In this document: in pieces, positions 1-33,032 of the stretch
Layout: each line of letters begins with the position of its first letter
Position numbering within the stretch: position 1 is the stretch's first letter
From: a virus
Virus record (IMG/VR): IMGVR_UViG_3300032342_000033
Coordinates: 1 to 33,032 of that record
Strand: one strand, 5' to 3'
DNA length: 33,032 nt
Position numbers and translations under genes: made by a program
Notes under the pieces: generated by a model
Databases searched by the model: none
Seen by the model: the letters and a program-made list of their open reading frames with translations, nothing else
Told to the model about the DNA's origin: nothing

Positions 1-3000
1 CACCACTATAGCCAGACGTTCCCGCTCCAGAATAGCCAGAAACTCCAGAGCCAGAGTAACCTGAAACGCCAGAACCAGAGTAGCCAGAGTAACCTGACAC
101 ACCGCTATAACCAGAAAAACCACTATAGCCAGACGTTCCCGCTCCAGAATAGCCAGAAACTCCAGAACCCGAGTAACCTGAAACGCCAGAACCAGAGTAG
201 CCAGAGTAACCTGACACACCGCTATAACCACTTATGCCGCTATAACCCGAGATGCCAGAATAGCCAGAAACTCCAGAGCCAGAGTAACCTGAAACGCCAG
301 AGTAGCCACTTGTGCCGCTGTAGCCCGAAACACCACTGTAGCCAGAATAACCTGAGACACCAGAGCCAGAGTAACCAGACACGCCAGAGCCAGAGTAGCC
401 ACTTACACCAGAGTAGCCACTTACACCAGAGCCGCTATAACCACTAAATCCTGAATAACCTAAGACACCAGAGCCAGAATAACCAGAAATACCGCTATAA
501 CCGCTTACACCCGAGCCAGAGTAACCAGAGATGCCGCTATAGCCACTTACACCTGAGCCAGAGTAACCAGAAACACCGGAGCCAGAGTAGCCACTTATTC
601 CACTATAGCCAGAGATGCCTGAATATCCAGAGACACCAGAGCCAGAGTAACCGGAAATGCCGCTATAGCCACTTACACCTGAGCCAGAATAGCCTGATAC
701 ACCGCTTCCGCTATAGCCGCTTACGCCAGAGCCTGAATATCCCGATGCTCCTGAACCTGTTGCACCAGAGTAACCAGAGACGCCAGATCCAGAATAACCA
801 GACACGCCAGAACCAGAGTAGCCAGAATAACCACTCACACCAGAGCCAGAATAACCAGAAACACCTGAGCCAGAGTAGCCACTTACACCAGAGCCAGAAT
901 AGCCACTGTAGCCAGAGACGCCAGAGCCTGAGTAACCACTTACACCAGAACCTGAGTAGCCAGAATCACCCGCAGGACCAGAATATCCTAAACCACTGTA
1001 TCCACTTACACCCGAACCAGAGTAGCCACTTACGCCTGAATAGCCTGAAACACCAGAATAGCCACTCAAACCTGAGTAGCCTGAGTAGCCAGATGTTGCA
1101 ATTCCAGAATATCCCGAAGTGCCTAAACCAGAATAACCACTAATACCAGAATAACCTGAAACGCCTGGAGAACCCGAATCAGCATTTAATCCTGAATATC
1201 CCGATGTGCCAATTGATCCTGAATAGCCAGAAGTACCAGAGCCGCTGTAGCCTGATATTCCAGAGCCTGAATAACCGCTTACACCAGAATAGCCACTGAG
1301 ACCGATTGAGCCAATTGAAAGGGTTGAAATCTGGTAACTGGTGTGTTCTATTCCGCAGAAGTACATTACGAAGTCGCAGTTTGCAGGGGCAGAGACACGT
1401 TGAGCGTAGATTCTGTACAGAAGTCTATTATCTGTAGTCAGAGCATGAGCATCGGGATTAGTCGTATGTATGTGTAACAGTTGAAGAGCGTCCGAGAAGT
1501 CTACACTTGTAGTGGTTCGTAGAAGTGATTCTGCAGAACCGTCTGCTTCAGTGTGGTATGTTTCTACGTAGACTTTTGCTACTTGGTTTCCAGCACCTGT
1601 TTGTACCCAGAAGTATCTTTCGTTGATGCCGGCTGGGAGAGCAGTTACGCCAGGGACTCCAGGTTCTGTGATGAATGCACCAACCAAGAATGGAGACGTA
1701 CCAGTTAATGTTAGAGCAATGCCACTCTCACCGTTAGGTGAAGGCGACTCACGCATGACGTAGTAGCCTGAAGTTGCAGAAATAGTTGATGGGTCAGGAT
1801 AGAAGGGCTTACCGGCAGCATTTCCATCATGCCCGCTATATCCAGAATGTCCAGAGTAGCCACTTATACCTGAATAGCCACTTATTCCTGAGTAACCAGA
1901 AATTCCACTATAGCCGGAATAGCCAGAGACACCAGAACCTGAATAGCCACTCACTCCTGAGCCAGAATATCCCGAGTAGCCACTTACTCCTGAGCCAGAA
2001 TATCCAGAATAACCGCTTACACCAGAACCAGAATAGCCAGAGATACCAGAGTAACCTGAAACGCCACTGCCACTGTATCCTGAAACACCAGATCCAGAAT
2101 AACCTGAAGTGCCAGAACCTGAATATCCGCTTACTCCCGATCCAGAATAGCCAGAAACACCAGAACCTGAATAGCCAGAAACACCAGATCCAGAATAACC
2201 CGAAGTGCCAGAACCTGAATATCCGCTTACTCCCGAGCCACTATAACCTGAATATCCACTTATGCCGGAACCACTATAGCCTGAATAACCCGAGACGCCA
2301 GAGTAGCCTGAAATACCAGAATAACCACTATAGCCTGAAGTGCCAATGCCAGAATAGCCAGAAACGCCAGAACCAGAGTAGCCAGAAACACCTGGAGATC
2401 CCGAATCGGCGTTTATTCCGGAATAGCCCGATATACCAGAATAGCCAGACGTTCCAAAACCAGAATAACCACTTACACCGGAACCAGAATAGCCTGAAAC
2501 ACCAGAGCCAGAATAACCACTTACACCAGATCCGCTATAACCTGATTTTCCTGAATAGCCAGAGATGCCCGAATAACCTGAATAGCCACTTACACCGGAG
2601 CCAGAATAGCCAGAAACGCCAGAACCAGAGTAGCCAGAAACACCAGAACCAGAGTAGCCAGAAACACCAAAACCAGAATAACCTGACTTTCCAGAATAAC
2701 CTGAGATGCCAGAATAACCAGAATAACCACTTACGCCGGAACCTGAATAACCGGAAACGCCAGAACCTGAGTAGCCAGAGACACCGCTGTATCCCGAAAT
2801 TCCCGAACCGGAATAGCCAGAAACCCCGCTGCCACTGTAGCCTGAAACACCAGAGCCTGAGTAGCCAGAGACACCAGAATAGCCAGAAATTCCAGAGTAG
2901 CCCGAGCCTCCTGCACCGCTATAACCAGATGTACCAGATCCCGAATAGCCACTTATACCAGAACCACTGTATCCAGAAATTCCAGAACCGCTGTAGCCTG

Positions 3001-3670
3001 AAACTCCAGAACCTGAGTAGCCTGAAGGGCCAGAATAACCCGACGTACCGAGGCCAGAATAGCCTGAAAATCCTAAGCCAGAATAACCTGAAGTTCCTGA
3101 TCCTGAATAACCGCTTACACCGGAGCCTGAGTAACCACTCACACCTGAGCCTGAGTAACCAGAGATACCAGAGTAACCACTTACGCCAGAATAGCCAGAG
3201 ACACCAGAACCCGAATAACCGGAAGTACCCGAACCTGAATAGCCAGAGTAACCGCTTACGCCACTATAGCCAGACTTTCCAGAATAACCTGAATAGCCTG
3301 AAACACCTGAGCCAGAATAGCCACTTACACCAGAGCCAGAGTAGCCACTTGTGCCTGAACCGGAATAGCCAGACTTTCCAGAATAACCCGAATAGCCTGA
3401 AACACCAGAGCCTGAGTAACCAGAGACACCAGCTGGACCAGAATAACCAAGACCCGAATAGCCTGATTGTCCTTGAAATCCTGAATAGCCTGATGTTTGA
3501 GCATCGGATCCGGAATAGCCCGAATAGCCTGACGTTCCAGAATAACCTGAAGTGCCCGCACCTGCAACAGCGTTTTCTATTGTTCCGCTAGTGCTCCAAC
3601 GCAAAAACTTCCCAGCATCTGGCTGAGAAGCATCTAGTAATTCACGGAATCGTTTATATACGCGCTGCAT
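1..3670 (-). CDS. Giant GYSG-repeat (collagen-like) fibre protein, 3'-truncated by window edge
   Basis: The gene starts at ATG 3670-3668, overlapping the previous stop as TAATG. The frame samples as open down to base 2, giving at least 1,222 residues with no stop reached. Residues 1-40 form a short anchor containing GKFLRWSTSGTIENAV, similar to GKFLVWKNDGTIENVV in the 12488 gene. Residues about 41-613 are GYSG-type repeats (GYSGSGVS, GYSGISGYSG). Residues about 615-787 (bases 1310-1830) are a non-repetitive, probably beta-sandwich domain with an aromatic/charged composition. GYSG repeats then resume to the window edge. Such chains are usually labelled collagen-like and occur in phage adsorption fibres; the attachment role is inferred from position. 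The repeat arm contains a 117-base tandem duplication and a block 96% identical to part of the 7380 gene. The C-terminal tip, which usually sets specificity, lies outside the window. Confidence 0.85.
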   Translation of the reverse strand, partial: MQRVYKRFRELLDASQPDAGKFLRWSTSGTIENAVAGAGTSGYSGTSGYSGYSGSDAQTSGYSGFQGQSGYSGLGYSGPAGVSGYSGSGVSGYSGYSGKSGYSGSGTSGYSGSGVSGYSGSGVSGYSGYSGKSGYSGVSGYSGYSGSGTSGYSGSGVSGYSGVSGYSGISGYSGSGVSGYSGSGVSGYSGSGTSGYSGLGFSGYSGLGTSGYSGPSGYSGSGVSGYSGSGISGYSGSGISGYSGSGTSGYSGAGGSGYSGISGYSGVSGYSGSGVSGYSGSGVSGYSGSGISGYSGVSGYSGSGVSGYSGSGVSGYSGYSGISGYSGKSGYSGFGVSGYSGSGVSGYSGSGVSGYSGSGVSGYSGYSGISGYSGKSGYSGSGVSGYSGSGVSGYSGSGVSGYSGFGTSGYSGISGYSGINADSGSPGVSGYSGSGVSGYSGIGTSGYSGYSGISGYSGVSGYSGYSGSGISGYSGYSGSGVSGYSGSGTSGYSGSGVSGYSGSGVSGYSGSGVSGYSGSGTSGYSGSGVSGYSGSGVSGYSGISGYSGSGVSGYSGYSGSGVSGYSGYSGSGVSGYSGSGVSGYSGYSGISGYSGISGYSGISGYSGHSGYSGHDGNAAGKPFYPDPSTISATSGYYVMRESPSPNGESGIALTLTGTSPFLVGAFITEPGVPGVTALPAGINERYFWVQTGAGNQVAKVYVETYHTEADGSAESLLRTTTSVDFSDALQLLHIHTTNPDAHALTTDNRLLYRIYAQRVSAPANCDFVMYFCGIEHTSYQISTLSIGSIGLSGYSGVSGYSGSGISGYSGSGTSGYSGSIGTSGYSGLNADSGSPGVSGYSGISGYSGLGTSGYSGIATSGYSGYSGLSGYSGVSGYSGVSGYSGSGVSGYSGLGYSGPAGDSGYSGSGVSGYSGSGVSGYSGYSGSGVSGYSGSGVSGYSGSGVSGYSGYSGSGVSGYSGSGVSGYSGATGSGASGYSGSGVSGYSGSGVSGYSGSGVSGYSGISGYSGSGVSGYSGISGYSGISGYSGSGVSGYSGSGVSGYSGISGYSGSGVSGYSGISGYSGSGVLGYSGFSGYSGSGVSGYSGVSGYSGSGVSGYSGSGVSGYSGYSGVSGYSGTSGYSGVSGYSGSGVSGYSGISGYSGISGYSGVSGYSGYSGSGVSGYSGSGVSGYSGAGTSGYSGFSGYSGVSGYSGYSGSGVSGYSGSGVSGYSGAGTSGYSG
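4..230. repeat. 117-base tandem duplication inside the GYSG gene
   Basis: Bases 4-113 recur at 121-230 with only two mismatches (at 50 and 53, against 167 and 170). The 117-base period is 39 codons, so the reading frame is kept. It is larger than the basic 24-base unit, and the low divergence suggests a recent duplication of a compound repeat block. Confidence 0.85.
41..160. repeat. Block shared with the neighbouring fibre gene (5641-5760)
   Basis: Bases 41-160 align without gaps to bases 5641-5760. I count five mismatches in 120 bases (50, 53, 83, 89 and 118). Both copies are in frame in different GYSG genes. Identity this high in a repeat whose codons otherwise vary suggests gene conversion or unequal recombination between the two genes. 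Confidence 0.8.
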
Positions 3671-3882
3671 TAAGTCGTTCTTCCATATTTTTCTTGAGAT
3701 ACGAAGGCGCTAACTTTTCTGGCAACGGTAAAAAGGGAGGGCTTTACATTGGCTAAGAATAGATTTACTTTTTTTGATGATATGAATATTGAGTCGATAT
3801 CGCCTTTATTGATGATTATTACAGTAACTACTGCAGAAAAATCACCGTATGGAAGCGACGCGTATTCATAGTTTCCGTACAT
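3670..3882 (-). CDS. Small hypothetical protein, 70 aa
   Basis: A 70-residue protein starting at ATG 3882, with a short GGA Shine-Dalgarno-like sequence about 6 bases upstream (AATAGGAATATGAATG). Its TAA stop overlaps the ATG of the following giant fibre gene as TAATG, which implies translational coupling. The N-terminus (MYGNYEYASLPYGDF) is aromatic, followed by a hydrophobic beta-like stretch (AVVTVIIINKGDID). I see no signal peptide or clear membrane helix. I do not recognise the family. Its place between two fibre-region genes suggests a small fibre-attachment or accessory protein, but this is inference only. Confidence 0.6.
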   Translation of the reverse strand: MYGNYEYASLPYGDFSAVVTVIIINKGDIDSIFISSKKVNLFLANVKPSLFTVARKVSAFVSQEKYGRTT

Positions 3883-3893
3883 TCATATTCCTA

Positions 3894-4634
3894 TTAAGTA
3901 TTAGACGTTGTGAAGACACTCTTGTTAGCTACTGGGTTGAGGACGAGTGAATGTGCTATAAATCCTTCAGCATTTGTATCTGTAGGACCAGTCATCGAGG
4001 CTGGTGTCTCGGCAGCATATCCAGGCCAAAATCTATAGCCTATTCTACCAGCTATACCACTTTTAGCTGTTCCGCTTCCTATGTGTAAGCAGCCAACAGC
4101 GTTTGTATAGTTAGCACCAACGACAAGCTGTACAGCAGATGTGAGTGAGCAAGTTCCAACCTCTAAAACAACAGAACCAGGAATAGTAGGTGTGACAGCT
4201 GCAAAAACAGGTAGCGGAGAGTTTGTGCCTGAGTTTGCACCACTTTGACTGGCGATCAGTGGAGTCACCGAATTTACGCCTCGCCAGACAGAAACCATGC
4301 CTATTCTGCCATAGCCTGCAGTGACAGTACCGAAGACAGTGACAGATGCTAAATCAGCATCAGCTGTTAGATACTTATAAGCAACACATGCTGAAGGGTC
4401 AATAGTTTCTGCCACAGCTGCTTTGTAGAGATTTGTGTACAGATTTGTATCTGAGCCAGATACGCCTGTTGAAGAGACACTGCCAGTTCCAGCAGAGTAT
4501 GCTGTATGTGCTACTACGAAGTCGCCAACACGGGCGGCTGTGTCGATGCCACCTGTGAGCTCCGTAAGACTTACATCGTATGTTCCCGTGGAGGCTATTC
4601 CACTTACAAAGTTTCCGCCTACGAATTTTATCAC
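3894..4634 (-). CDS. Fibre-region beta-rich structural protein, 246 aa
   Basis: The frame begins at GTG 4634, one base after the TAA of the giant fibre gene at 4636. No Shine-Dalgarno sequence is visible, so it is probably translated by re-initiation after the upstream gene. Composition is rich in Ala, Gly, Ser, Thr and Val with few charges, typical of phage appendage beta-structures. The N-terminus (MIKFVGGNFVSGIASTGTYD) and the region up to GDFVVAHTAYSAGTGS resemble domains often found in phage fibre or virion-decorating proteins. The chain ends LNPVANKSVF. No catalytic motif is seen. Position directly after a GYSG fibre suggests a co-assembling tip, knob or accessory protein; the exact role is unknown. 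Confidence 0.7.
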   Translation of the reverse strand: MIKFVGGNFVSGIASTGTYDVSLTELTGGIDTAARVGDFVVAHTAYSAGTGSVSSTGVSGSDTNLYTNLYKAAVAETIDPSACVAYKYLTADADLASVTVFGTVTAGYGRIGMVSVWRGVNSVTPLIASQSGANSGTNSPLPVFAAVTPTIPGSVVLEVGTCSLTSAVQLVVGANYTNAVGCLHIGSGTAKSGIAGRIGYRFWPGYAAETPASMTGPTDTNAEGFIAHSLVLNPVANKSVFTTSNT

Positions 4635-4635
4635 T

Positions 4636-7380
4636 TTATGGTACCGTACAAGACAGCGTTACAACACCGAGACCCGGTGTTCCAGAGACAGCAACTATTT
4701 GTAGCCATAGCCAGTTGTCGGCAGCTAGTGCTGTGTCTGCGAAGCCAGCTGGAGCAACTGTTACACCTGCAACAGGAGCATACGTACTTGTCGTTAGCAA
4801 CGATGAGCCAGATGTGCCGATTGATGATCGTTCTTGAATGTTGAACGTGAAGCCCGATACGTTGAGTGCATATGCATCAGCTCTGGTAGCAGTGTGAGCT
4901 TCTTTTAGTCGTGGACCAGGGATGCCAGAAGCGATGGCAGAACTTGCAACGGGATTATCTACAACCCATGTGTAAGTACGTATTCCAGCATTTCCAGAGT
5001 AGCCCGATGTGCCTGCTCCCGACCAGCCTGAATAACCTGAGTCACCGGCACCTGAATAACCTGAATTGCCTGAATAGCCTGAGCTGCCTACACCCGAGTA
5101 GCCACTAAAACCAGAATAACCACTTACACCAGAGCCAGAGAATCCAGAGTAGCCTGAAACACCAGAGCCAGAATAGCCTGATATTCCGCTGTAACCAGAA
5201 TAGCCAGAAACACCTGAACCAGAATAACCAGAAACGCCTGCACCAGAATAACCAGAAACGCCTGCACCAGAATAGCCACTTACGCCAGAGCCAGAGAAAC
5301 CAGAGTAGCCAGACGACCCGGAGCCGCTATAACCAGAATAGCCAGATGTACCAGAATAGCCAGACATTTGAGCATCCTGCCCTGAATAGCCAGAAGTACT
5401 AGAACCTGCGGCACCTGAGTAGCCAGAGGCTGTTAGAAGATCCCAATAAGCTGTTCCAGCTGGATTTGGTGTTTGCCCCGTTCCGCTTTGAATACAAATA
5501 TATCCTGCACCCAAATATCCGACCGTATCGTTCGGAACATATCCTGAACCTGCACTATATTGACCTTGCCAAGGATAATTTTCGCCACTTACTCCTGAGT
5601 AGCCAGAAACTCCAGAACCCGAGTAACCTGAAACGCCAGAAACTCCAGAACCCGAGTAACCTGAAACGCCAGAACCAGAGTAACCAGAATAACCTGACAC
5701 ACCGCTATAACCAGAAACACCACTATAGCCAGACGTTCCCGCTCCAGAATAGCCAGAAACACCAGAGCCCGAATAACCTGAAACGCCAGAACCAGAATAA
5801 CCAGAATAACCAGAATAACCAGAAATTCCAGAGTAGCCGCTTACACCAGAATAACCCGAATAGCCCGATGTACCTAAGCCAGAATAACCACTTACGCCAG
5901 AACCAGAATAGCCAGAAACACCAGAACCAGAATAGCCAGAAACACCAGAACCAGAATAGCCACTATAGCCCGAAGTTCCAGAATAACCCGAATATCCTGA
6001 AATTCCTGAGTAGCCAGAAGTTCCGATACCAGAGTAACCACTAACTCCAGAACCAGAATAACCAGAAACACCGGAGCCCGAATAGCCACTATAGCCCGAT
6101 GTACCAGAATAACCAGAAACGCCCGAATAGCCGCTTACACCAGAACCAGAATAGCCAGAGACGCCAGAACCAGAGTAACCAGAAAAACCAGAATAGCCAC
6201 TAACGCCGGAGCCAGAATAGCCAGACTTACCAGAGTAACCTGAATAACCGCTAACGCCTGAATAACCGCTAACGCCTGAATAGCCACTAACACCTGAATA
6301 GCCGCTAACACCAGAACCAGAATAACCTGAAACGCCTGAACCCGAATAACCCGATTTACCGCTATAACCAGAAACACCGGAGCCCGAATAGCCACTTGCA
6401 CCAGAATAGCCTGATCCGCCTGAATAACCAGATGTTAAAGCATCTGAACCCGAATAACCAGAAATTCCAGAATAACCCGAAGCACCTCCGCCAGGACCAG
6501 AATAACCAGAAGTACTAGTACCTGAATTGCCCGAATAACCAGAAACTCCAGAATATCCCGATGTTAGAGCATCAGAGCCAGAGTAGCCAGAAACTCCAGA
6601 ACCCGAGTAGCCGCTGACACCTGAACCAGAGTAACCCGAAACACCAGAGCCAGAGTAACCTGAAACACCAGAGCCAGAGTAACCTGAAACACCAGAGCCA
6701 GAGTAACCTGAAACACCAGAGCCAGAGTAACCAGACACGCCAGAGCCAGAGTAGCCAGATATACCCGAATAACCGCTAACACCCGAACCAGAATAGCCCG
6801 ATTCACCAGAATAACCCGAATAACCAGAAATTCCAGAGTAGCCAGATATACCCGAATAACCGCTAACACCCGAACCAGAATAACCACTAACGCCAGAGCC
6901 AGAGTAGCCCGATATACCACTATGACCCGAAGTTCCAATTCCAGAATAACCGGATGTTAGAGCATCGGAGCCAGAGTAGCCAGATGTTCCCACACCATCA
7001 ACACCTGAATAACCAGATGTTCCCATGCCAGAATAACCTGAAACGGGCACTGCTATATTGTTTTCTAGCTCTTGTATCTTTCCTGCTGTAATTGCATGAA
7101 TAATTTTATCGCCGACATTCCATTCTTTTGCTAAAGTGTCTTCTTGTGCTCGAGTAATCGTAAACGTATCTACAGAGGAAAGTTCACAAAGAACGATCTC
7201 TCTAGCAATATCATCAGAAGGATTTATATAAGTCGAAGACCAGATAACGGCAATAAAAATTCCCGTTTGAGGGAATCTTACACCATGTCCAACTGCAACT
7301 GTTAAGCTTAAATCACCAGAGCCAATTCGAGCCGCAATGGTCGATTTAGCAAAGTTTTTATTTTTGAAAACGATGGCCAA
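4636..7380 (-). CDS. GYSG-repeat fibre protein with embedded and C-terminal globular domains, 914 aa
   Basis: Start chosen at TTG 7380, because a strong AAAGGAGAG lies 5 bases upstream and the product then begins MAIVFKNKNFAKS. Residues 1-110 are a globular anchor with the same pattern as the N-terminus of the 18164 gene (F-K-N, short Ala/Ser stretch, T/S-L-T-V, FP, EIV, FTITRA). Residues 115-595 are GYSG repeats. Residues about 597-649 are a small aromatic module (WQGQYSAGSGYVPNDTVGYL, later YWDLL) resembling carbohydrate-binding modules of the chitin-binding type. Repeats resume to about residue 795, and a beta-rich C-terminal domain of about 118 residues (RTYTWVVDNPV to LSCTVP) ends the chain. 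The architecture fits a long tail fibre attached to the baseplate by its N-terminus. Attachment and sugar binding are inferred. Confidence 0.85.
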   Translation of the reverse strand: MAIVFKNKNFAKSTIAARIGSGDLSLTVAVGHGVRFPQTGIFIAVIWSSTYINPSDDIAREIVLCELSSVDTFTITRAQEDTLAKEWNVGDKIIHAITAGKIQELENNIAVPVSGYSGMGTSGYSGVDGVGTSGYSGSDALTSGYSGIGTSGHSGISGYSGSGVSGYSGSGVSGYSGISGYSGISGYSGYSGESGYSGSGVSGYSGISGYSGSGVSGYSGSGVSGYSGSGVSGYSGSGVSGYSGSGVSGYSGSGVSGYSGSGVSGYSGSDALTSGYSGVSGYSGNSGTSTSGYSGPGGGASGYSGISGYSGSDALTSGYSGGSGYSGASGYSGSGVSGYSGKSGYSGSGVSGYSGSGVSGYSGVSGYSGVSGYSGVSGYSGYSGKSGYSGSGVSGYSGFSGYSGSGVSGYSGSGVSGYSGVSGYSGTSGYSGYSGSGVSGYSGSGVSGYSGIGTSGYSGISGYSGYSGTSGYSGYSGSGVSGYSGSGVSGYSGSGVSGYSGLGTSGYSGYSGVSGYSGISGYSGYSGYSGSGVSGYSGSGVSGYSGAGTSGYSGVSGYSGVSGYSGYSGSGVSGYSGSGVSGVSGYSGSGVSGYSGVSGENYPWQGQYSAGSGYVPNDTVGYLGAGYICIQSGTGQTPNPAGTAYWDLLTASGYSGAAGSSTSGYSGQDAQMSGYSGTSGYSGYSGSGSSGYSGFSGSGVSGYSGAGVSGYSGAGVSGYSGSGVSGYSGYSGISGYSGSGVSGYSGFSGSGVSGYSGFSGYSGVGSSGYSGNSGYSGAGDSGYSGWSGAGTSGYSGNAGIRTYTWVVDNPVASSAIASGIPGPRLKEAHTATRADAYALNVSGFTFNIQERSSIGTSGSSLLTTSTYAPVAGVTVAPAGFADTALAADNWLWLQIVAVSGTPGLGVVTLSCTVP
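5332..5394. repeat. 63-base exact match to 11658-11720
   Basis: Bases 5332-5394 are identical to 11658-11720 over 63 bases. Both encode the same segment, containing SGQDAQMSGYSGTSGYSG, in two different fibre genes. The unusual QDAQM insertion makes chance convergence of a simple repeat unlikely and supports exchange of repeat modules between the genes. Confidence 0.85.
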
Positions 7381-7381
7381 A

Positions 7382-7714
7382 TTAACTCTCCTTTACAATA
7401 ATCCAGACATCATCTTCCTTTTTTTGAGTGTCCGACAACGTTATTCTATATGAAAGTCTATATTTGAAACCAGATATGCCCGCAGAAACCATGACAACAA
7501 GAACTCTTTCTCTACCCACAACACCAGTTAAAGAGGGAGAGCCAGTCTGAATGTGCGGACCATAGTTCGCTGCAATCAACCCTTGAGTTACAGCAACAGT
7601 TTCTTCTAATGTCACTGAATATGCCGCAATAGTCGTTCCAGAAGGAACACGTCGTGAAAAGTCTACAGCAACAAGTTCTTCTTCATAGGGTTGTTTAGTA
7701 TATTCGAAGGCCAT
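7382..7714 (-). CDS. Small beta-sandwich-like fibre accessory protein, 110 aa
   Basis: ATG at 7714 with AAGGGG 7 bases upstream. The product begins MAFEYTKQPYEEELVAVDFS, then shows alternating beta-like segments (GTTIAAYSVTLEETVAV, ERVLVVMVSAG, YRLSYRITLSD) ending in VWIIVKES. This composition and length are typical of small Ig-like proteins encoded beside phage fibre genes. No membrane helix, signal peptide or catalytic motif is seen. The stop lies one base before the TTG of the next GYSG fibre, and that gene's ribosome-binding site lies inside this coding end, so the two are probably translationally coupled. A fibre-assembly or attachment role is inferred from context. Confidence 0.7.
   Translation of the reverse strand: MAFEYTKQPYEEELVAVDFSRRVPSGTTIAAYSVTLEETVAVTQGLIAANYGPHIQTGSPSLTGVVGRERVLVVMVSAGISGFKYRLSYRITLSDTQKKEDDVWIIVKES
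7386..7394 (-). promoter_or_regulatory. Strong ribosome-binding site that decides a TTG start
   Basis: AAAGGAGAG on the minus strand, 5 bases before TTG 7380. There is no ATG or GTG nearby in this frame, so this site is the main support for the TTG start of the 914-residue fibre. Confidence 0.7.
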
Positions 7715-7725
7715 TTATTATCCCC

Positions 7726-8520
7726 TTAAACGATTACCGCTGTAGTTGTAAGCTGGACGGGCTGACTGATTCTATCCCAGTTGATGATTGGGATCATTCC
7801 TAAAGCTTTGCCGTAAGCTGTTTCTCCTAAGCTAATAAGATTACCGTTTTCGTATAATAACAAGCCCGAAGATGTCGTAGGATAATATGCACCAAGACTT
7901 GCAACGTAAGCTGCGCCGAGGGGAATGTAGACTCGAATATTGCCCTTGTTAACAGCATTATAGATATTAATTACAATAGCAGAGCGGCAGCTGAAACTGG
8001 ACGAGAACTTCATATAGAGAACTTCACCATCGGTAGCAATGCTCGATATATTACTCATAACTCCCGTTGAAGCTAACGTACAAACTCTAGTACCTGCAGG
8101 ATCAGCCATACTATTAGAAAAAGAAGAATATGAGCTAACATAAAAATCAATCATGCCAGTAAAGGCGCCGCAAACTTTAGAAAACACGTTAGAAGCATTT
8201 CCAATATAACCAAAAAGCAATTGACGAAGAGTTAATTGAGTACTCTCAATGGGAACTGTTGTATCGCCATAACCAATCACACGTCCAGTGTCGGAATTTA
8301 CAGTTTCCTCAATCCAAGGGCCTCCCGCAGGAAGAGATTCTTCTGCTGAATAAAGCGATTCTATCGTATCATCGTCTTGCATTTCTGTAAGAAACACCTT
8401 ACACGCAGGAACAAGCGTTGCTCCCCAGGTCAAAGAATTAAAATCCCAGAAATTCCCTGAAGCATCTCTTAAACGTGTATAGACACTCTTATTTTTTAAA
8501 TATCTAATAAAAAGAAACAT
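7726..8520 (-). CDS. Hypothetical virion/fibre-region protein, 264 aa
   Basis: I place the start at ATG 8520 (MFLFIRYLKNKSVYTRLRDA), which follows GGGAGAGAAT. A TTG four codons upstream is less likely because that Shine-Dalgarno lies inside the extension. The N-terminal part (RLRDASGNFWDFNSLTW, then KVFLTEMQDDD) resembles a small beta domain seen in phage fibre accessory proteins. The rest is beta-rich and low in charge (GEVLYMKFSSSFSCRSAIVI, GNIRVYIPLGAAYVASLGAY) and ends QLTTTAVIV. There is no signal peptide, clear transmembrane helix or enzymatic motif. It sits between a holin-like gene and a small Ig-like gene. Likely a structural or adhesin component; the function is not recognised. Confidence 0.65.
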   Translation of the reverse strand: MFLFIRYLKNKSVYTRLRDASGNFWDFNSLTWGATLVPACKVFLTEMQDDDTIESLYSAEESLPAGGPWIEETVNSDTGRVIGYGDTTVPIESTQLTLRQLLFGYIGNASNVFSKVCGAFTGMIDFYVSSYSSFSNSMADPAGTRVCTLASTGVMSNISSIATDGEVLYMKFSSSFSCRSAIVINIYNAVNKGNIRVYIPLGAAYVASLGAYYPTTSSGLLLYENGNLISLGETAYGKALGMIPIINWDRISQPVQLTTTAVIV

Positions 8521-8533
8521 ATTCTCTCCCAAC

Positions 8534-8839
8534 TTATTTCTTAATCAATTTTTCTAAAACGCTCGTCCCATCAGACCCGTTTTCAATAAGCTTCTGATAA
8601 CCCTTGCCAGCAATTAATATTAAGCACGTCGTTTGGACTCCTGCGGGAATATCCGACATCGTTTTAGACAATATTGATACGTATGACCAAACTAAAACAA
8701 CTGCAATACCAAACATTAAAAAAACGAGCCGCATCGAAGATAAAATGTTGTTATCTTCAGAAAAAAATTCTAATATACGATATTTTTTTATAATTGTTGA
8801 TTTTTCTTCAATTTCTTTGATCATAATTTCTTCTTTCAT
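8534..8839 (-). CDS. Holin-like small membrane protein, 101 aa
   Basis: ATG at 8839. The protein has a charged N-terminus (residues 1-30), a transmembrane helix at about residues 36-57 (MRLVFLMFGIAVVLVWSYVS), a second, weaker hydrophobic segment at about 64-83 (IPAGVQTTCLILIAGKGYQK) and a short charged tail ending KLIKK. This arrangement, with SSMRL before helix 1 and IPAGV...GKGYQK around helix 2, resembles small two-helix phage membrane proteins often annotated as putative holins. If correct, it would form membrane lesions that start lysis. No endolysin gene is adjacent, so the lysis role rests on topology alone. It could instead be a membrane protein acting in superinfection exclusion. Confidence 0.5.
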   Translation of the reverse strand: MKEEIMIKEIEEKSTIIKKYRILEFFSEDNNILSSMRLVFLMFGIAVVLVWSYVSILSKTMSDIPAGVQTTCLILIAGKGYQKLIENGSDGTSVLEKLIKK

Positions 8840-8875
8840 TTGTTTATTCCGCCTAACTTATTAATAGAGCTTTTC

Positions 8876-9151
8876 TTATGGCGGACCAACATTAACAACT
8901 GTATTAACGTCTTTACATCGCCACTTATGTAGTGTTTTATTCCACCAACAATCGCCATCAACAGCATTAGCAGGGTCTCCTGTATTATGAACGCCAATTA
9001 AACGAGTACCGTCTGCAGCAGTCGTCGAAACCGATGTAACATTATCTATATCGCCCCGAATATTTCTACCATCAATTAATACAGTCTCAGCATAAACAGT
9101 TGCGACGCCAACATTAAATATTAAAAAACAATAAAACAATATATTTTTCAC
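8876..9151 (-). CDS. Small exported protein with fibre-like GDCWWN motif, 91 aa
   Basis: The start is GTG 9151, with GGAG at 9157-9160. A TTG 11 codons upstream would overlap the end of the previous fibre gene and put charged residues before the signal. Residues 1-21 (MKNILFYCFLIFNVGVATVYA) look like a Sec signal peptide with cleavage after VYA. The mature part has about 70 residues and contains GDPANAVDGDCWWNKTLHKW with Cys68 and Cys79, which could pair in the periplasm. The GDCWWN...W-x-C pattern is common in short domains at phage fibre ends, so this looks like a fibre-type module made as a separate secreted protein. There is no lipobox. A role at the host envelope is inferred. Confidence 0.6.
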   Translation of the reverse strand: MKNILFYCFLIFNVGVATVYAETVLIDGRNIRGDIDNVTSVSTTAADGTRLIGVHNTGDPANAVDGDCWWNKTLHKWRCKDVNTVVNVGPP

Positions 9152-9156
9152 ATTTT

Positions 9157-9160
9157 CTCC
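9157..9160 (-). promoter_or_regulatory. Ribosome-binding site supporting a GTG start
   Basis: GGAG, 5 bases before GTG 9151. The ATG overlapping this GTG runs straight into TGA (ATGTGA), so GTG is the only sensible start that gives a clean signal peptide. Confidence 0.55.
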
Positions 9161-9164
9161 AATT

Positions 9165-12100
9165 CTAAACAGATATTGATCCAAAAGTATACCAAATTCC
9201 CGGAGTTCCTGCAGAAGTACAAACCCATCCTATATTTCCGCCAGCAACAGGATTAGAATTCCATCTTATCCAACCAAGAGGCCAATATCCTGATACGGGT
9301 GGCGCAAAGCCCATATCTTGTCCCGATATACTAATTCCAGAATAACCAGATGTTCCAGAATAACCAGATTTTCCAGAATAACCAGAGTAACCAGACTTAC
9401 CGCTAAAACCAGAATAGCCCGATCTACCAGAATAGCCAGAAGTTCCTACAATACCAGAATCGCCAGAGTAACCTGATTTACCAGAATAGCCCGATAAACC
9501 CAATCCCGAATAGCCAGAAACACCTGAACCCGAATAACCTGATTTACCAGAGTAGCCAGAGTAGCCAGAAACACCAGAGCCAGAGTAACCTGAAACGCCA
9601 GAACCAGAGTAGCCAGAGTAACCGCTTATACCGCTATAACCCGACGTTCCTATTCCAGAATAACCTGAATAACCCGAATAACCCGAATAACCCGATCTGC
9701 CAGAATAGCCACTATATCCACTAACACCAGAATAGCCACTAACTCCAGAGCCAGAGTAGCCAGAAAGACCAGAATAGCCTGACGTTCCCGATGAGCCTGA
9801 ATAACCCGAAGAACCAACAAACTCTTCGCCAGAGTAGCCAGAAGCACCTATGTCACCAGAGTAACCTTGCGGACCAACGATTGTCTGCCCAGAATAACCC
9901 GATGTGCCTGTACCTGAATAACCCGAAGTGCCTATACCTGAATAACCCGATGTACCTACACCAGAATAACCAGAGACACCTGAGCCAGAATAACCAGATG
10001 TGCCGATACCAGAATAACCAGATAAACCGCTATAGCCTGAAACACCTAAACCTGAAATGCCTGAATAGCCCGACGTACCCGATCCAGAATAGCCAGATTT
10101 ACCACTATAACCACTTACACCTGAGCCAGAATAGCCAGACGTACCAATGCCAGAATAACCTGATCTACCCGAGTAGCCAGAAGAACCAACGAAAGCAACT
10201 CCAGAGTAACCAGATGTGCCTGAGCCAGAATAACCCGAAAGACCCAAGCCAGAAGCACCAGAATAGCCAGAATCACCGCCTAAGTCTCCAGACGCGCCCT
10301 TATAACCTGATTCGCCAGAATAGCCAGAAAAACCAGAATCTCCCCCGGGTTCTCCTGAATAACCGCTTACACCAGAGCCAGAATAACCGCTAACACCAGA
10401 GCCAGAGTAGCCAGAAAGACCCTGAGAACCCTGTGATCCCACACTTCCCGAATAGCCCTGTAAACCGATACTACCAGAATAACCTGAGACGCCAGAACCA
10501 GAATATCCTGATTTACCAGAATAGCCAGAAGTACCCGTACCAGAATAACCCGAAGCACCGAGTCCCGAGTAACCCGACGAACCTATAAATTCTGAGCCAG
10601 AATAACCAGAAACACCTATGCCAGAATAACCACTAAGGCCTGAATAACCAGAGATGCCTAACAGGCCCTGAGGGCCCGTTGCGCCCACAAAGCCAGAATA
10701 TCCCGACACTCCTGAACCGCTATAACCACTAGTGCCACTATATCCGCTAATACCACTATAACCACTAGTACCAAAATAACCACTCTTCCCTGAATAGCCC
10801 GAAGTGCCGCCAGGATCGCCTGATTGACCACGATAACCCGAATAGCCTGAATAGCCCGAAGTACCACCTGGATCTCCCGTTTTTCCTGAATAGCCCGAAA
10901 GTCCTTCATATCCTTGGCTGCCCGTAACACCTGAAACACCAGAGTAGCCTGATTCGCCTGAATAACCAGAAGTTAAAGCATCTGATCCCGAGTAACCAGA
11001 GTAGCCAGAAGCACCTATTTCACCAGAGTATCCGGAAGTGCCAGAACCAGAATAGCCAGAAACTCCCGAGCCCGAATAGCCAGAAACTCCAGAGCCTGAA
11101 TAGCCAGAAGTTCCACCTGGCTCTCCAGAAATACCAGAGTAGCCCGAATAGCCAGAAGCAGGGCCCGGTATTCCCTGAATACCTGAATATCCTGATTTTC
11201 CCGAATAGCCCGAAACACCAGAGCCTAATATTCCAGAATAACCCGACGCTCCAGATCTACCAGAATAGCCACTTGTTCCGCTGCCACTAATACCAGAATA
11301 ACCACTAACTCCTGAACCAGACCAGCCAGATCTTCCAGAATAGCCAGAAATGCCCGAATAGCCAGAAACGCCTGAATAACCCGACGTACCCATACCAGAA
11401 TAACCCGATGTACCCGAACCAGAATAGCCAGAAACACCTGAACCAGAATAGCCAGAAACACCTGAACCAGAATAGCCAGAAACACCCGAACCAGAATAAC
11501 CAGAAACGCCTAAACCAGAATAGCCAGAATCGCCTGAATAACCCGACGTACCAATGCCAGAGTAGCCGCTAACACCAGAGTAGCCAGATACACCAGAACC
11601 AGAATAGCCAGAATAGCCAGAATAGCCAAAATCTCCCGAATAACCCGAAGCGCCCACACCAGAATAGCCAGATGTACCAGAATAGCCAGACATTTGAGCA
11701 TCCTGCCCTGAATAGCCAGATACTCCTTGTTCTCCTGAATAACCCGAAGAACCAACAAACTCTTCGCCAGAGTAGCCAGACACACCCATATCGCCAGAGT
11801 AGCCAGACACACCCATATCGCCAGAGTAGCCAGACACACCCATATCGCCAGAGTAGCCAGAAGCACCTATGTCACCAGAGTAGCCAGAAGCACCGGAATA
11901 GCCAGAATCACCGCCTAAGTCTCCAGACGCGCCCTTATAACCTGATTCGCCAGAATAGCCAGAAAAACCAGAATCTCCCCCGGGTTCTCCTGAATAACCG
12001 CTTACACCAGAGCCAGAATAACCGCTAACACCAGAGCCAGAATCGCCGCTTACGCCACTATATCCGCTTTTACCTGAATAACCAGATCTTCCAGAATAAC

Positions 12101-12488
12101 CAGATCTTCCAGAATAACCCGAATAGCCCGAATAGCCACTTATACCCAAGCCAGAAAATCCAGATCTACCAGATCTTCCAGAATAGCCAGATATTCCTGA
12201 ATAGCCAGAAACACCTAAACCTGAATAACCAGAAACTCCCCGCCCAGAATAGCCAGATTTACCAGAGTAACCAGAAGAACCCTGATTGTCTCCTGAATAA
12301 CCCGAAGATCCTGAATAACCCGAGGTTCCGGGATTATCGCCTGAAAAACCAGAATAGCCAGAGTCTCCTGGAGTTCCATTTCCAACAACGTTTTCGATTG
12401 TCCCATCATTTTTCCAAACCAAAAATTTACCTGTTTCTGGTATGGGAGCATCATAAAGATCCTTAAACTCATTAAATATTCTTTTCAT
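9165..12488 (-). CDS. Giant GYSG-repeat (collagen-like) fibre protein, 1,107 aa
   Basis: Complete gene from ATG 12488. Residues 1-40 form an anchor (MKRIFNEFKDLYDAPIPETG, then GKFLVWKNDGTIENVV) similar to the start of the 3670 gene. Residues about 41-1050 are GYSG repeats with insertions such as GEPGGDSG, GDMGVSGYS, GEEFVGSSG, GSDALTSG and short true Gly-X-Y runs (GATGPQGLLGIS, GSVGSQGSQGLS). The C-terminal cap of about 50 residues (PLGWIRWNSNPVAGGNIGW, then TPGIWYTFGSISV) resembles short caps on phage fibres. There is no catalytic motif. Internal DNA duplications (10247-10406 with 11882-12041; 11766-11846) show repeat turnover. A long fibre or shaft role is inferred; whether the chain is a triple helix, another glycine-rich fold or disordered is open. 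Confidence 0.87.
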   Translation of the reverse strand: MKRIFNEFKDLYDAPIPETGKFLVWKNDGTIENVVGNGTPGDSGYSGFSGDNPGTSGYSGSSGYSGDNQGSSGYSGKSGYSGRGVSGYSGLGVSGYSGISGYSGRSGRSGFSGLGISGYSGYSGYSGRSGYSGRSGYSGKSGYSGVSGDSGSGVSGYSGSGVSGYSGEPGGDSGFSGYSGESGYKGASGDLGGDSGYSGASGYSGDIGASGYSGDMGVSGYSGDMGVSGYSGDMGVSGYSGEEFVGSSGYSGEQGVSGYSGQDAQMSGYSGTSGYSGVGASGYSGDFGYSGYSGYSGSGVSGYSGVSGYSGIGTSGYSGDSGYSGLGVSGYSGSGVSGYSGSGVSGYSGSGVSGYSGSGTSGYSGMGTSGYSGVSGYSGISGYSGRSGWSGSGVSGYSGISGSGTSGYSGRSGASGYSGILGSGVSGYSGKSGYSGIQGIPGPASGYSGYSGISGEPGGTSGYSGSGVSGYSGSGVSGYSGSGTSGYSGEIGASGYSGYSGSDALTSGYSGESGYSGVSGVTGSQGYEGLSGYSGKTGDPGGTSGYSGYSGYRGQSGDPGGTSGYSGKSGYFGTSGYSGISGYSGTSGYSGSGVSGYSGFVGATGPQGLLGISGYSGLSGYSGIGVSGYSGSEFIGSSGYSGLGASGYSGTGTSGYSGKSGYSGSGVSGYSGSIGLQGYSGSVGSQGSQGLSGYSGSGVSGYSGSGVSGYSGEPGGDSGFSGYSGESGYKGASGDLGGDSGYSGASGLGLSGYSGSGTSGYSGVAFVGSSGYSGRSGYSGIGTSGYSGSGVSGYSGKSGYSGSGTSGYSGISGLGVSGYSGLSGYSGIGTSGYSGSGVSGYSGVGTSGYSGIGTSGYSGTGTSGYSGQTIVGPQGYSGDIGASGYSGEEFVGSSGYSGSSGTSGYSGLSGYSGSGVSGYSGVSGYSGYSGRSGYSGYSGYSGYSGIGTSGYSGISGYSGYSGSGVSGYSGSGVSGYSGYSGKSGYSGSGVSGYSGLGLSGYSGKSGYSGDSGIVGTSGYSGRSGYSGFSGKSGYSGYSGKSGYSGTSGYSGISISGQDMGFAPPVSGYWPLGWIRWNSNPVAGGNIGWVCTSAGTPGIWYTFGSISV
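10247..10406. repeat. 160-base internal direct repeat, copy 1
   Basis: Bases 10247-10406 match 11882-12041 in the same gene with one mismatch (10260 against 11895), 1,635 bases apart. The product segment includes GEPGGDSGFSGYSGESGYKG followed by ASGDLGGDSGYSG. The spacing is a multiple of three, so recombination between the copies would delete or duplicate 545 codons in frame. Confidence 0.9.
11766..11846. repeat. 27-base tandem repeat, three perfect copies
   Basis: Three identical 27-base units at 11766-11792, 11793-11819 and 11820-11846, each encoding the 9-residue unit GDMGVSGYS. A degenerate fourth unit follows. Perfect identity suggests recent slippage or unequal exchange. Confidence 0.9.
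11882..12041. repeat. 160-base internal direct repeat, copy 2
   Basis: Second copy of the block at 10247-10406, identical apart from one base. It lies nearer the N-terminus of the protein. Confidence 0.9.
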
Positions 12489-12561: not shown

Positions 12562-12894
12562 TCAAATGTCGCGAGTGCTCACAATTTCAGATTGAAGGTC
12601 GATATCGTACATTTGCAATGTTTGATATGAACCCGCGATAGTGAGTCGCATTAATTCGCCATAATATTTACTTATAAAAAGGTTTGCAGTAAGATCGTTC
12701 GTAATTTCAACATAGAAAAGCCCATGGACTTCATCGGTTATGGTGCACTCAATAGGCTCAATAGCATAAAAATCATCTTTGCGATCATTTTTCATCGCAA
12801 AGTACATCTTATCAGCAGCATCAATAGTGCGATGGAGGTCGAACTGAAGGTTTATCGTTCGGTCTCGAACAAATATCATTTTCGTAGTCGCCAC
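12562..12894 (-). CDS. Small baseplate/fibre adaptor-like protein, 110 aa
   Basis: GTG start at 12894 with GGAG 6 bases upstream; the next in-frame ATG (codon 6) has no such site. The sequence (MATTKMIFVRDRTINLQFDL, then ADKMYFAMKNDR, CTITDEVHGLFYVEITNDLT and GSYQTLQMYDIDLQSEIV) reads as a single Ig-like beta-sandwich. It resembles the N-terminal attachment domains of receptor-binding baseplate proteins of the BppU type and their T4-like counterparts. There is no signal peptide or membrane helix. It lies just upstream of a giant GYSG fibre gene, with about 73 bases between them, and may link the fibre to the baseplate. The family match is by eye and tentative. Confidence 0.6.
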   Translation of the reverse strand: MATTKMIFVRDRTINLQFDLHRTIDAADKMYFAMKNDRKDDFYAIEPIECTITDEVHGLFYVEITNDLTANLFISKYYGELMRLTIAGSYQTLQMYDIDLQSEIVSTRDI

Positions 12895-12948: not shown

Positions 12949-13434
12949 CTAAGGAACAAGTACCCCAGTAGCGATAAAAAGTACAGCCGTCGCAGTAGCA
13001 ACAAACCACGGCTTCTTATACCATATATCAAGGCTGTCAATCTTGTCCTTAGCATCTTTTAACTGTGATTCATACCTGGCAGCCTCAAGTGCTCTATCTT
13101 TCTCTGCATTTAATTGCTTTAACTGAGAAATCTCGAGGTCCTTCTGAGCAAATTTCAAGTTGTCCCTCAAATCATTAGATTCAGCAACCCCAATCATTGC
13201 TTTCTCTAGACGCTCTGGCTCAACCAAATACCCATCAAAGGGCGCTGGTTGGGTCTTCTTCAGAGGCGTTGTCGGATTCAAATAGACAACATTATCGCCT
13301 ATTTTTAATCTAATCAGAGGTTCAGGTGGACCTGCAAAAGCGTTACTTGCCCCAGCCCTTGGGAGGAGTGTAATTATCGACAACGTTATCAAACTGGCCA
13401 GAAATACGTTTCGGGTCCTTGCTCTCAATCGCAT
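12949..13434 (-). CDS. Spanin-like periplasmic coiled-coil protein with C-terminal membrane anchor, 161 aa
   Basis: Starts at ATG 13434, inside the end of the previous gene (92 bases of overlap in another frame). Residues 1-34 form a signal-peptide-like segment (basic MRLRARTRN, hydrophobic FLASLITLSIITLL, then AGASNAFA). Residues 35-75 are Pro-rich, 80-135 are predicted coiled coil (DLEISQLKQLNAEKDRALEA), and 143-160 form a C-terminal transmembrane helix (WFVATATAVLFIATGVLV). Overlapping envelope-protein genes recall Rz/Rz1 spanins, and an N-terminal export signal with a C-terminal helix recalls single-chain spanins. However, there is no lipobox cysteine, so outer-membrane lipidation is not supported. 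A lysis role is plausible but unproven. Confidence 0.55.
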   Translation of the reverse strand: MRLRARTRNVFLASLITLSIITLLPRAGASNAFAGPPEPLIRLKIGDNVVYLNPTTPLKKTQPAPFDGYLVEPERLEKAMIGVAESNDLRDNLKFAQKDLEISQLKQLNAEKDRALEAARYESQLKDAKDKIDSLDIWYKKPWFVATATAVLFIATGVLVP

Positions 13435-13768
13435 CCTTTATTCCCATCCGCCTTTTTTCTTGCAAGGCTTTTACTTTGATTCGTTCCGCTGCAAGACCTT
13501 TCTCGAGGTCCTCTATCTTTATCTTGTTCCTAAAAATCTCTTCCTGTTGGGACTGGATCGTGGCATCAAATTTTCGGCCCATCTCGTCCAACCATGCCTT
13601 CGTTCTGCCAGAAGCGTACCAGTGACTCACAAAGACTATCCCGACGATAAGAACAACAGCTACGACCGCTCCGATCACCTTTCGTTTTGTCGTACTGAAG
13701 AAACCTTTGGCATCAGCAATCTTCCTGTCCATCGCTTCATGTAACAATTTCTCTAAATCGGTGTCCAT
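13343..13768 (-). CDS. i-spanin-like inner-membrane coiled-coil protein, 141 aa
   Basis: ATG 13768 with AAGGGG 6 bases upstream. Residues 1-30 are charged and probably cytoplasmic, 31-50 form one transmembrane helix (VIGAVVAVVLIVGIVFVSHW), and about 57-105 form a long charged coiled coil (FDATIQSQQEEIFRNKIKIE and onward). The tail is Pro/Lys-rich (NVVDNYTPPKGWGK). A single N-terminal anchor with a periplasmic coiled coil is the Rz (i-spanin) layout. The downstream gene, also with export and membrane segments, overlaps its last 92 bases. Together they look like a two-component envelope-disrupting pair. The alternative is a membrane-associated structural or assembly protein, since no endolysin is nearby. 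Confidence 0.55.
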   Translation of the reverse strand: MDTDLEKLLHEAMDRKIADAKGFFSTTKRKVIGAVVAVVLIVGIVFVSHWYASGRTKAWLDEMGRKFDATIQSQQEEIFRNKIKIEDLEKGLAAERIKVKALQEKRRMGIKDAIESKDPKRISGQFDNVVDNYTPPKGWGK

Positions 13769-17486: not shown

Positions 17487-18164
17487 TTACCACCTATCAA
17501 CAGTCATAGATATCGTGCATCGAGTAATAGAAGAGCATGAATCGACATTAAAAGCAAAAATATCACCTTTAGAAAAATTTCTCGTCCAATCAGTCAATAA
17601 AGAATCTTGAGATTTTTGAGCACCTGCAATTGTTGCTTGAGTCGAACCAGTTATTGAATCCCACGTGTTCTCTGGAGGATAATTTGCATAAACATCTTTC
17701 CAAATATCAATAGCAATACTGCCAGCTTGATCGGCGAAAAGGCGGACACTCTTGATAGTCCCGTTAAATGGCGCTTCGATCCAGCCCTTCAAGCCAGCAT
17801 TTATTTCAAAGCCTCCACCATCAATAATGTAGACGATAGATCCTTCTTTAAGAGCGTCAATAAATCCTGCAGTAAGACGGAGCTCGACGAGGTCTTGAGC
17901 TTCAAAAGCAATTGCTGTAGTCCCTTCTTGACCTCTGCCATAACCGGGTGTAGCGTGAACAGTGAATGTATCACCAGATCGCTGTATAATTCTGACAATC
18001 TCTTTATCACCTACTGAATTCTCTAAAGTAACCAACATATGATCATCAACGCCGAGAGTCGGAAATAACGCTCCGTCATCAGTGATAATGTTAAAAGTTG
18101 TTGCAGTCGATGAAATACTACTTGCTAACCGAGATTTGGCATTATTTTTGAATAATTGTGACAT
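17487..18164 (-). CDS. Tail-fibre-type protein with baseplate-attachment N-terminus, 225 aa
   Basis: ATG 18164 with GAGGT 6 bases upstream. Residues 1-115 form an attachment domain (MSQLFKNNAKSRLASSISST, then TTFNI, LFPTLG, EIVRIIQRSGDTFTV, GQEGTTAIAF) of a kind common at the start of phage tail fibres, and similar to residues 1-110 of the 7380 fibre. Residues 120-225 are a beta-rich C-terminal domain (GLKGWIEAPFNGTIKSVRLF, then GSIAIDIWKDVYANYP, and KGDIFAFNVDSCSSITRCTI) that often ends short phage fibres and baseplate decorations. The protein therefore combines an anchor and a small head without a shaft. Its function in attachment is inferred. Confidence 0.75.
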   Translation of the reverse strand: MSQLFKNNAKSRLASSISSTATTFNIITDDGALFPTLGVDDHMLVTLENSVGDKEIVRIIQRSGDTFTVHATPGYGRGQEGTTAIAFEAQDLVELRLTAGFIDALKEGSIVYIIDGGGFEINAGLKGWIEAPFNGTIKSVRLFADQAGSIAIDIWKDVYANYPPENTWDSITGSTQATIAGAQKSQDSLLTDWTRNFSKGDIFAFNVDSCSSITRCTISMTVDRW

Positions 18165-32104: not shown

Positions 32105-32740
32105 TTATGCAGTGCCCATGATATTTTGCCAGAAATCAGTACCGCATGATTGCATGAAAATCTGGTTGATCGGACCGTACACATCATTCCACGACTCTAC
32201 ATAGCGGAATCTAACAATCAAATGAACATGAAACACATCTTGCGGGAAAAACTCGGCATCTGGTGAAAATCTATCCGTGTTTATGTCCAAGTCCGGCATA
32301 TCATCGTTGACAGCCGAATAACTTTCCAAAATAAATCTAATGAAAGTACCGAGAAGCCTCACTAGCAAGATCTGTTTTGCCAGAATGTTAATAGAATAGA
32401 CGCCCATGTTGATGGTGCCATATTCTTCCGTATCTGTGCCATCGTCCATGATAGCACTACCCAATACATCGCCAATAGGCTTATCTGATTCTATTTGCGT
32501 TTCTTGATCCATAATTACAACGATGTTTGGAACCACTGCTGAAATCGTTGCATATGTTGTATGATACTGAATCTTGTCATTTATAATGATGTCTTTGAAT
32601 GCCGCTCTTTCTTCTTTACTCAAGTCGACGGTATCGAATAAATAAGCAAAAGTTTGATCAAAAGAGCTGCCTGTTTGCTTTAACGCATTAAAGGCCGACT
32701 GTATGATCCTTAGAATCTTGTACTCGTTAAAAGGAAACAT
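32105..32740 (-). CDS. Putative tail terminator/neck protein, 211 aa
   Basis: I place the start at ATG 32740 (MFPFNEYKILRIIQSAFNAL). A TTG at 32797 would lie deep in the upstream endonuclease gene. Even so, it overlaps that gene by 14 bases. The protein has a helical N-terminus (residues 5-70, with DLSKEERAAFKDIIINDKI), then beta segments (TISAVVPNIVVIMDQETQI, INMGVYSINILAKQILLVRL) and a C-terminal FHVHLIVRFRYVESWNDVYG. Position immediately before sheath and tube matches tail terminator, tail completion or neck proteins, which join tail to head. I do not recognise a specific family, so the call is mainly from gene order. Confidence 0.55.
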   Translation of the reverse strand: MFPFNEYKILRIIQSAFNALKQTGSSFDQTFAYLFDTVDLSKEERAAFKDIIINDKIQYHTTYATISAVVPNIVVIMDQETQIESDKPIGDVLGSAIMDDGTDTEEYGTINMGVYSINILAKQILLVRLLGTFIRFILESYSAVNDDMPDLDINTDRFSPDAEFFPQDVFHVHLIVRFRYVESWNDVYGPINQIFMQSCGTDFWQNIMGTA

Positions 32741-33032
32741 GACAAGAAGCCTCTCTCTTTTTAACCCAGTATTCTCGCCACCATTTAGCTGCACCAAGAT
32801 TTTTCTTACCGAACATTGAATGATTTTCTTTATTCTTCAATCTAGCTTTTGCCGCTATACTCATTTTTTCTCTTGTTTCATCGGAAAGTCTTTTTCCTTT
32901 CCAGTAACTAATGCGTCCCTTGGACGATTCGCCAATTTTTCTTTTAGATTCTTCAGAACGAAAACCCGTGAAGCCGCCCTCTCCACCATCAGCAACATTA
33001 TAGCCGATAGAAGAATCTTGAGAATTATAAAA
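32727..33032 (-). CDS. GIY-YIG homing endonuclease with NUMOD3 repeats, 5'-truncated by window edge
   Basis: The frame is open from the window edge to TAA 32729-32727, giving 101 visible residues. The start (YNSQDSSIGYNVADGGEGG) is the end of a GIY-YIG nuclease domain of the Seg/I-TevI type, with the conserved N-S...GYN...GG-x-GG pattern. Two NUMOD3-like DNA-binding segments follow (FRSEESKRKIGESSKGR and WKGKRLSDETREKMSIAAKA), then HSMFGKKNLGAAKWW. The nuclease's catalytic N-terminal part lies outside the window. Such free-standing enzymes cut related phage genomes that lack them and spread by repair. It lies just before the tail genes, overlapping the next gene by 14 bases. Whether it is intact cannot be seen. 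Confidence 0.8.
   Translation of the reverse strand, partial: FYNSQDSSIGYNVADGGEGGFTGFRSEESKRKIGESSKGRISYWKGKRLSDETREKMSIAAKARLKNKENHSMFGKKNLGAAKWWREYWVKKREASCHVSF

Follow-up and report, generated by a model that had tools for sequence, protein, structure and literature searches.

We describe a cassette of three repetitive fibre genes in IMG/VR virus record IMGVR_UViG_3300032342_000033, whose 33,032 bp constitute the window analysed here and whose end falls inside the first of these genes. The genes, fibres A, B, and C (Table 1), belong to a contractile-tailed phage and very probably encode long collagen-like tail fibres of its baseplate. These are most likely trimers, with a predicted anchor, a stalk, and modules that would contact glycans. 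They lie on the same strand and together comprise 9,738 bp, or 29.5% of the window, in agreement with an initial annotation that had singled out three GYSG-rich genes filling about 29% of it. The peptide GYSG occurs 146, 88, and 123 times in A, B, and C, respectively, relative to means of 4.3, 1.9, and 4.1 (maxima of 11, 7, and 12) after residue shuffling. In the Gly codons of G-x-S-G units, bases 1 and 2 are invariant and the third positions carry approximately 1.4-1.6 bits; likewise, the identical peptide GYSG is encoded by 54 (A), 31 (B), and 35 (C) distinct 12-mers. The protein pattern is therefore conserved while codons drift, as the initial annotation had proposed.

The underlying unit is a Gly-X-Y triplet, and GYSG is a by-product of the triplet repeat. 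Consecutive glycines are three residues apart in 280 (A), 171 (B), and 291 (C) cases and two apart in 79, 50, and 45; other spacings are rare within the repeats. A frequent 8-residue form, GYSGSGVS, corresponds to three triplets minus one residue (a "G1G" break). In the window fibres, X is mostly Tyr, Val/Ile, or Thr and Y is mostly Ser, with ordinary collagen triplets (GEP, GDP, GPQ) mixed into fibre C. All three proteins exceed the curated cut-off of 27.2 bits for Pfam Collagen (PF01391), with A at 48.7 bits (E = 6.4e-13), B at 35.4 (E = 9.1e-9), and C at 167.8 (E = 4.1e-50), and all three match PHROG tail fibre families (E = 5e-23, 1.5e-21, and 3e-62, respectively). Fibre C also aligns with collagen I chains by phmmer (E = 4e-39), a value to be read with the usual caution for low-complexity sequence.

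The initial annotation recommended looking for GYSG-repeat proteins and their gene neighbours in other phage genomes, and such proteins turn out to be widespread. A DNA-pattern search of IMG/VR for GYS repeats returned at least 117 viral stretches, and the neighbouring genes are conserved in contigs L009, L022, and L023. Among the matches listed, 152 distinct open reading frames with at least 10 GYSG units formed the set for a composition survey: a median of 89% of their short Gly gaps equal three, and the longest unbroken run extends for 333 triplets (999 residues). Their X position is Tyr (41%), Ile (20%), Phe (9%), or Thr (8%), their Y position is Ser in 89% of triplets, and Pro is almost absent. 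For frequency of G1G breaks, A and B stand at about the 95th and 96th percentiles of this family and C at the 83rd. The same pattern in GTDB yielded 46 stretches, of which only about five (L262, L276, L297, L304, and L305) look like GYSG collagen by inspection, all of them on contigs from metagenome-assembled genomes or uncultured organisms; the remainder resemble short simple repeats. With so few genuine cases there, this collagen type appears to be mainly viral. A tblastn search of cultured phages with the whole of fibre C gave no hit, probably an effect of low-complexity filters that hide the repeat.

Genomic context places the cassette with the tail. Genes for the tail sheath, baseplate J, and tail tube initiator lie upstream on the same strand, which supports the earlier suggestion that these are tail-associated fibres. 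L009, L022, and L023 show the same gene order (upstream protein, C, a protein of about 270 residues, adaptor, B, A); the last two are near-identical, so the three contigs count as two independent lineages in addition to that of the window. L012 carries the same C gene, cut at the contig end. Across 95 GYSG contigs, 29 show at least two GYSG genes and 8 show at least three, in a sample of partial contigs where a few frames are split. Possession of several fibres is thus not peculiar to this phage, and the initial view that three such fibres would be unusual did not hold. One of the split frames is in the 187 kb contig L060, where the GYSG frame lies in about 11 pieces, suggestive of frameshift sequencing errors or a decayed gene.

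The fibres are modular. A and C begin with related anchor-like domains, a type that recurs in the A and C fibres of L009, L022, and L012; among cultured phages it had no convincing relative, only a very weak match (E = 3). The N-terminus of B belongs to a different type. It is the one shared with known tail fibres, and a further protein of the window, encoded at 17487-18164, starts with a homologous domain (32% identity, E = 2e-7). The presence of one kind of anchor on A and C and a second kind on B points to two or more attachment sites for the three proteins, whether they form separate or heteromeric fibres. The TTG start assigned to fibre B is supported by its orthologue at L009:9487-13308, which begins MAIIYKNKNF. 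The same orthologue contains an internal peptide, RSEERRVGKD, that resembles a translated sequencing adapter and that we take to mark a possible adapter join.

Non-repeat modules interrupt the triplets. The beta-sandwich of fibre A belongs to a family of 19 islands across 17 loci. Searched against PDB, it retrieves jelly rolls at moderate TM-score, with CocE-type hydrolases at TMq 0.58-0.70 and CBM61 and TNF lower; in BFVD, the best matches are phage "Collagen triple helix repeat" proteins (TMq 0.83). The insert of fibre B is of the CBM5/12 (chitin-binding) type: its family profile matches the ChiA1 chitin-binding domain 1ed7 (E = 2.6e-6), and all 11 family members match Pfam CBM_5_12, the best at 8e-8, with the window copy alone at E = 0.003, under the cut-off. 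In L009 all three fibres (A, B, and C) carry members of this CBM-like family, and in L022 fibres A and B do. Of the C-terminal regions, that of B had no match in PDB or Pfam and the tip of C had none in Pfam.

Two contigs, G001 and G002, are 99.7-99.9% identical, but fibre B of one is shorter by exactly 1,416 bp; the gap preserves the reading frame and has 23 bp of homology where its edges join. What is missing there comprises a beta-sandwich-like insert together with the two CBM modules. If the gap is not an assembly collapse, recombination between repeats drops modules without breaking the fibre.

Table 1. Coordinates of the fibre genes, their domains, and adjoining genes in the window.
Feature	Position	Strand	Size, evidence, or remark
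Fibre A, collagen-like tail fibre	2..3670	(-)	At least 1,223 aa; frame open at window edge, C-terminus beyond
Non-repeat beta-sandwich module in A	1307..1816	(-)	aa ~619-788; AlphaFold pLDDT 86.8
N-terminal anchor-like domain of A	3560..3670	(-)	~37 aa (MQRVYKRFRELLDA..GKFLRWSTSGTIEN); homologous to C N-terminus, 50% identity
Protein between B and A	3894..4634	(-)	246 aa; GTG start; open reading frame
Fibre B, collagen-like tail fibre	4636..7380	(-)	914 aa; TTG start
C-terminal domain of B, putative tip/trimerisation domain	4639..4989	(-)	aa ~798-914; conserved in orthologues L009, L022
CBM5/12-like (chitin-binding type) module in B	5419..5589	(-)	aa ~598-654; family-profile match; ligand binding predicted
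N-terminal anchor-like domain of B	7045..7380	(-)	~112 aa; 30 cultured phage records match, most annotated tail fibre
Gp77-type fibre-tail adaptor-like protein	7382..7714	(-)	110 aa; PF23148 "Podophage GP4 fiber-tail adaptor protein gp77", 33.9 bits, E = 4.5e-8
Protein between C and adaptor gene	7726..8532	(-)	268 aa; 56-57% identical orthologues in L009, L022; present in all three lineages seen
Small protein	8534..8839	(-)	101 aa; one likely transmembrane segment; open reading frame
Small protein overlapping C 3' end	8876..9184	(-)	102 aa; open reading frame
Fibre C, collagen-like tail fibre	9165..12488	(-)	1,107 aa
C-terminal non-repeat tip of C	9168..9335	(-)	~56 aa; sequence
N-terminal anchor-like domain of C	12378..12488	(-)	Same family as A anchor
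Protein directly upstream of C	12562..12894	(-)	110 aa; similar proteins directly upstream of C in L009:3485-3823, L022:1909-2247 (by eye)

We propose that the N-terminal domains would fix the fibres to the baseplate, A and C through one anchor type and B through another, perhaps by way of the Gp77-type adaptor. The (Gly-X-Y)n stretch would form a long thin stalk, probably a triple helix of three chains, in which the frequent one-residue register breaks may act as flexible points. The CBM5/12-like module of B, the beta-sandwich of A, and the C-terminal tips would touch host-surface glycans, so that the fibres could search for and grip the host surface, and the repeats would permit loss or gain of modules in frame by recombination.

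Several observations weigh against this model. Fibres A and B lose register approximately every 3.5 triplets, and their longest perfect runs are short (13 triplets in A and 12 in B; 19 in C); Gly at every third position thus holds in A and B only with frequent breaks. Pro makes up 1.4-1.6% of residues in A, B, and C and charged residues are few, and the Pro-rich or charged X and Y positions typical of studied phage and bacterial collagens (a feature outside the formal definition) are lacking in all three. Host-guest peptide work, as reviewed, ranks aromatic residues and Gly at X among the most destabilising to the triple helix (PMC12862961). Low-complexity sequence also inflates the significance of collagen profiles, so the wider GYSG family is better evidence for collagen-like periodicity than the scores of the window fibres. 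The module difference between G001 and G002 may stem from assembly, as noted above, and the presence of A, B, and C in the virion is predicted from their genes.

These points lend some weight to a different account, in which the GYSG stretches are disordered or elastomeric sticky brushes, resilin- or silk-like, with stacked or cross-linked Tyr in place of triple helices. The richness in Tyr, Gly, and Ser, the very low Pro content, the register breaks of A and B, and the destabilisation expected of aromatic X residues (PMC12862961) would all suit such a chain. A disordered chain, however, needs no strict Gly-X-Y periodicity, yet the family contains up to 333 uninterrupted triplets; moreover, X and Y differ in composition, and ordinary collagen triplets are present in fibre C. 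We therefore consider the brush, which is close to one of the options in the initial annotation, unlikely as the main idea: the repeat is collagen-like, and all three proteins score over the curated Pfam threshold. A polyglycine-II-type bundle, or another fold with Gly at every third residue that is not a three-chain superhelix, would accommodate Gly spacings of two or three more easily. Polyglycine-II packing is compatible with a proline-free Gly-X-X rhythm, but known domains of this kind are short and compact. The repeats here extend over hundreds of triplets with an asymmetry between X and Y, and we regard this fold as quite improbable for them.

The initial annotation had also raised the concern that the repeats might be an assembly duplication of one gene. 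Assemblers may collapse or duplicate such repeats, and fibre C contains an exact 146-bp internal duplicate, in stretches encoding GEPGGDSGFSGYSGESGYKGASGDLGGDSGYSGASG, that is either a recent duplication or an assembly effect. A single repeat gene copied or mis-joined three times is nevertheless extremely improbable and largely refuted: the longest exact DNA common to any two fibre genes is 48-63 bp, the encoded proteins differ at both termini and in their inserts, and independent contigs show the three genes in the same order. The little shared DNA and the distinct ends and inserts indicate that A, B, and C are real paralogues.

For the collagen-like reading of the fibres, the Tyr-led X position, the scarcity of Pro, and the destabilising effect of aromatic residues mean either that the helices are stabilised in another way or that they are not classic triple helices. 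Sugars on Ser at the Y position may be one such stabilisation and Tyr packing another. GT2 glycosyltransferase genes were found in 28 of 44 GYSG contigs versus 13 of 50 contigs with GPQ-type collagen (p = 3.6e-4), a difference that host or lineage may explain, and their density was 2.65 versus 0.68 hits per 100 kb. Their distance to the fibre genes was not significantly shorter than in circular-shift controls (p = 0.13). In both cassette-bearing relatives, a multi-domain GT2 gene lies on the downstream side of fibre A; no GT2 was seen among the scanned proteins of the window, which stops inside fibre A and leaves that downstream region outside. We treat the enrichment as a lead and not as evidence of glycosylation. 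A bolder and rather doubtful proposal is that GYSG fibres form a distinct phage class of proline-free collagen, stabilised by Ser sugars (from the linked GT2) and/or side-by-side Tyr packing instead of Pro or charge pairs; on this view, selection would have favoured the regular breaks of A and B as a bend or super-repeat, and recombination along the repeats would swap glycan-binding modules among the three fibres.

The remaining genes of the cassette are less easily classified. The adaptor-like protein passes the PF23148 cut-off of 27 bits, and its counterpart adjoins B in L009 and L022. The 246-aa protein had no family match in Pfam or PHROG scans; by eye, a similar protein occupies the same place at L022:10251-11006. 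For the 268-aa protein, no phage relative was found and the AlphaFold model scored 46.6, too low to be useful; its N-terminal half has a second, shorter copy downstream of the GT2 gene at L261:4799-5260 and L024:165-641. The 101-aa protein had no counterpart, by eye, in the cassettes of relatives, and the 102-aa protein had no family match. In L261 (contig G001), a 405-aa protein at 785-2002, B12-binding radical SAM-like by eye, is encoded downstream of the fibre region and directly upstream of the multi-domain GT2 gene at L261:1992-4361. Homing-endonuclease-like genes (GIY-YIG/NUMOD type, by eye) are inserted in or beside the cassette of L009 (L009:1092-3509 and 8829-9503), and one such gene lies at 32727-33032 of the window. 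The overlapping window genes within 12949-13768, upstream of the fibres, are likely a spanin lysis pair: 13343-13768 matches an Rz-like spanin (PHROG 4297, E = 7e-6), and the product of 12949-13434 begins with a signal-like stretch. In a search for the host, the baseplate J profile found no relative among 84,980 GTDB species.

Collagen-like phage tail fibres are already known. EPclA and EPclB of Escherichia coli O157:H7 prophages are trimeric, triple-helical, and dumbbell shaped as recombinant proteins and have been proposed as side-tail proteins; the X position of their collagen domain is 48% Pro, with many charged residues and without Tyr, Phe, or Trp (PMC3368898, Table 4). The window fibres, known from their genes, resemble them in a Gly-X-Y domain within a likely side-tail fibre and in globular ends, and differ in an X position led by Tyr, Val/Ile, and Thr (Tyr/Ile/Phe across the family), a Y position of mostly Ser, and almost no Pro. 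Annotated proteins of this kind exist for uncultured phages as well: the "Collagen triple helix repeat" proteins of uncultured Caudovirales (UniProt A0A6J5SWS4 and A0A6J5N627; PHROG 5073 and 6320), themselves predicted only, share the annotation class, the fold of the fibre A beta-sandwich, and the PHROG matches. The B module resembles CBM family 5/12 of chitinase A1 but sits within a phage fibre, where glycan binding is predicted. Likewise, the adaptor-like gene belongs with gp77 of podophage GP4 by family score, whereas the window phage is contractile-tailed and the adaptor role is a putative one. A search of the open-access literature for the GYSG motif or composition in phages found no paper, and we did not find the composition, length, environmental frequency, or conserved three-fibre cassette described there.

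Rules for collagen stability derive largely from Pro/Hyp-rich, charge-paired sequences. GYSG building blocks are thought to be poor for a collagen helix, yet this style of repeat is common in environmental phages, and a widespread natural family of Gly-Tyr-Ser and Gly-Ile-Ser triplets, with runs near 1,000 residues, would either extend the collagen rules or reveal a different fold. The cassette also suggests a way for phages to combine several long, modular fibres that would read glycans and that gain and lose modules without leaving frame.

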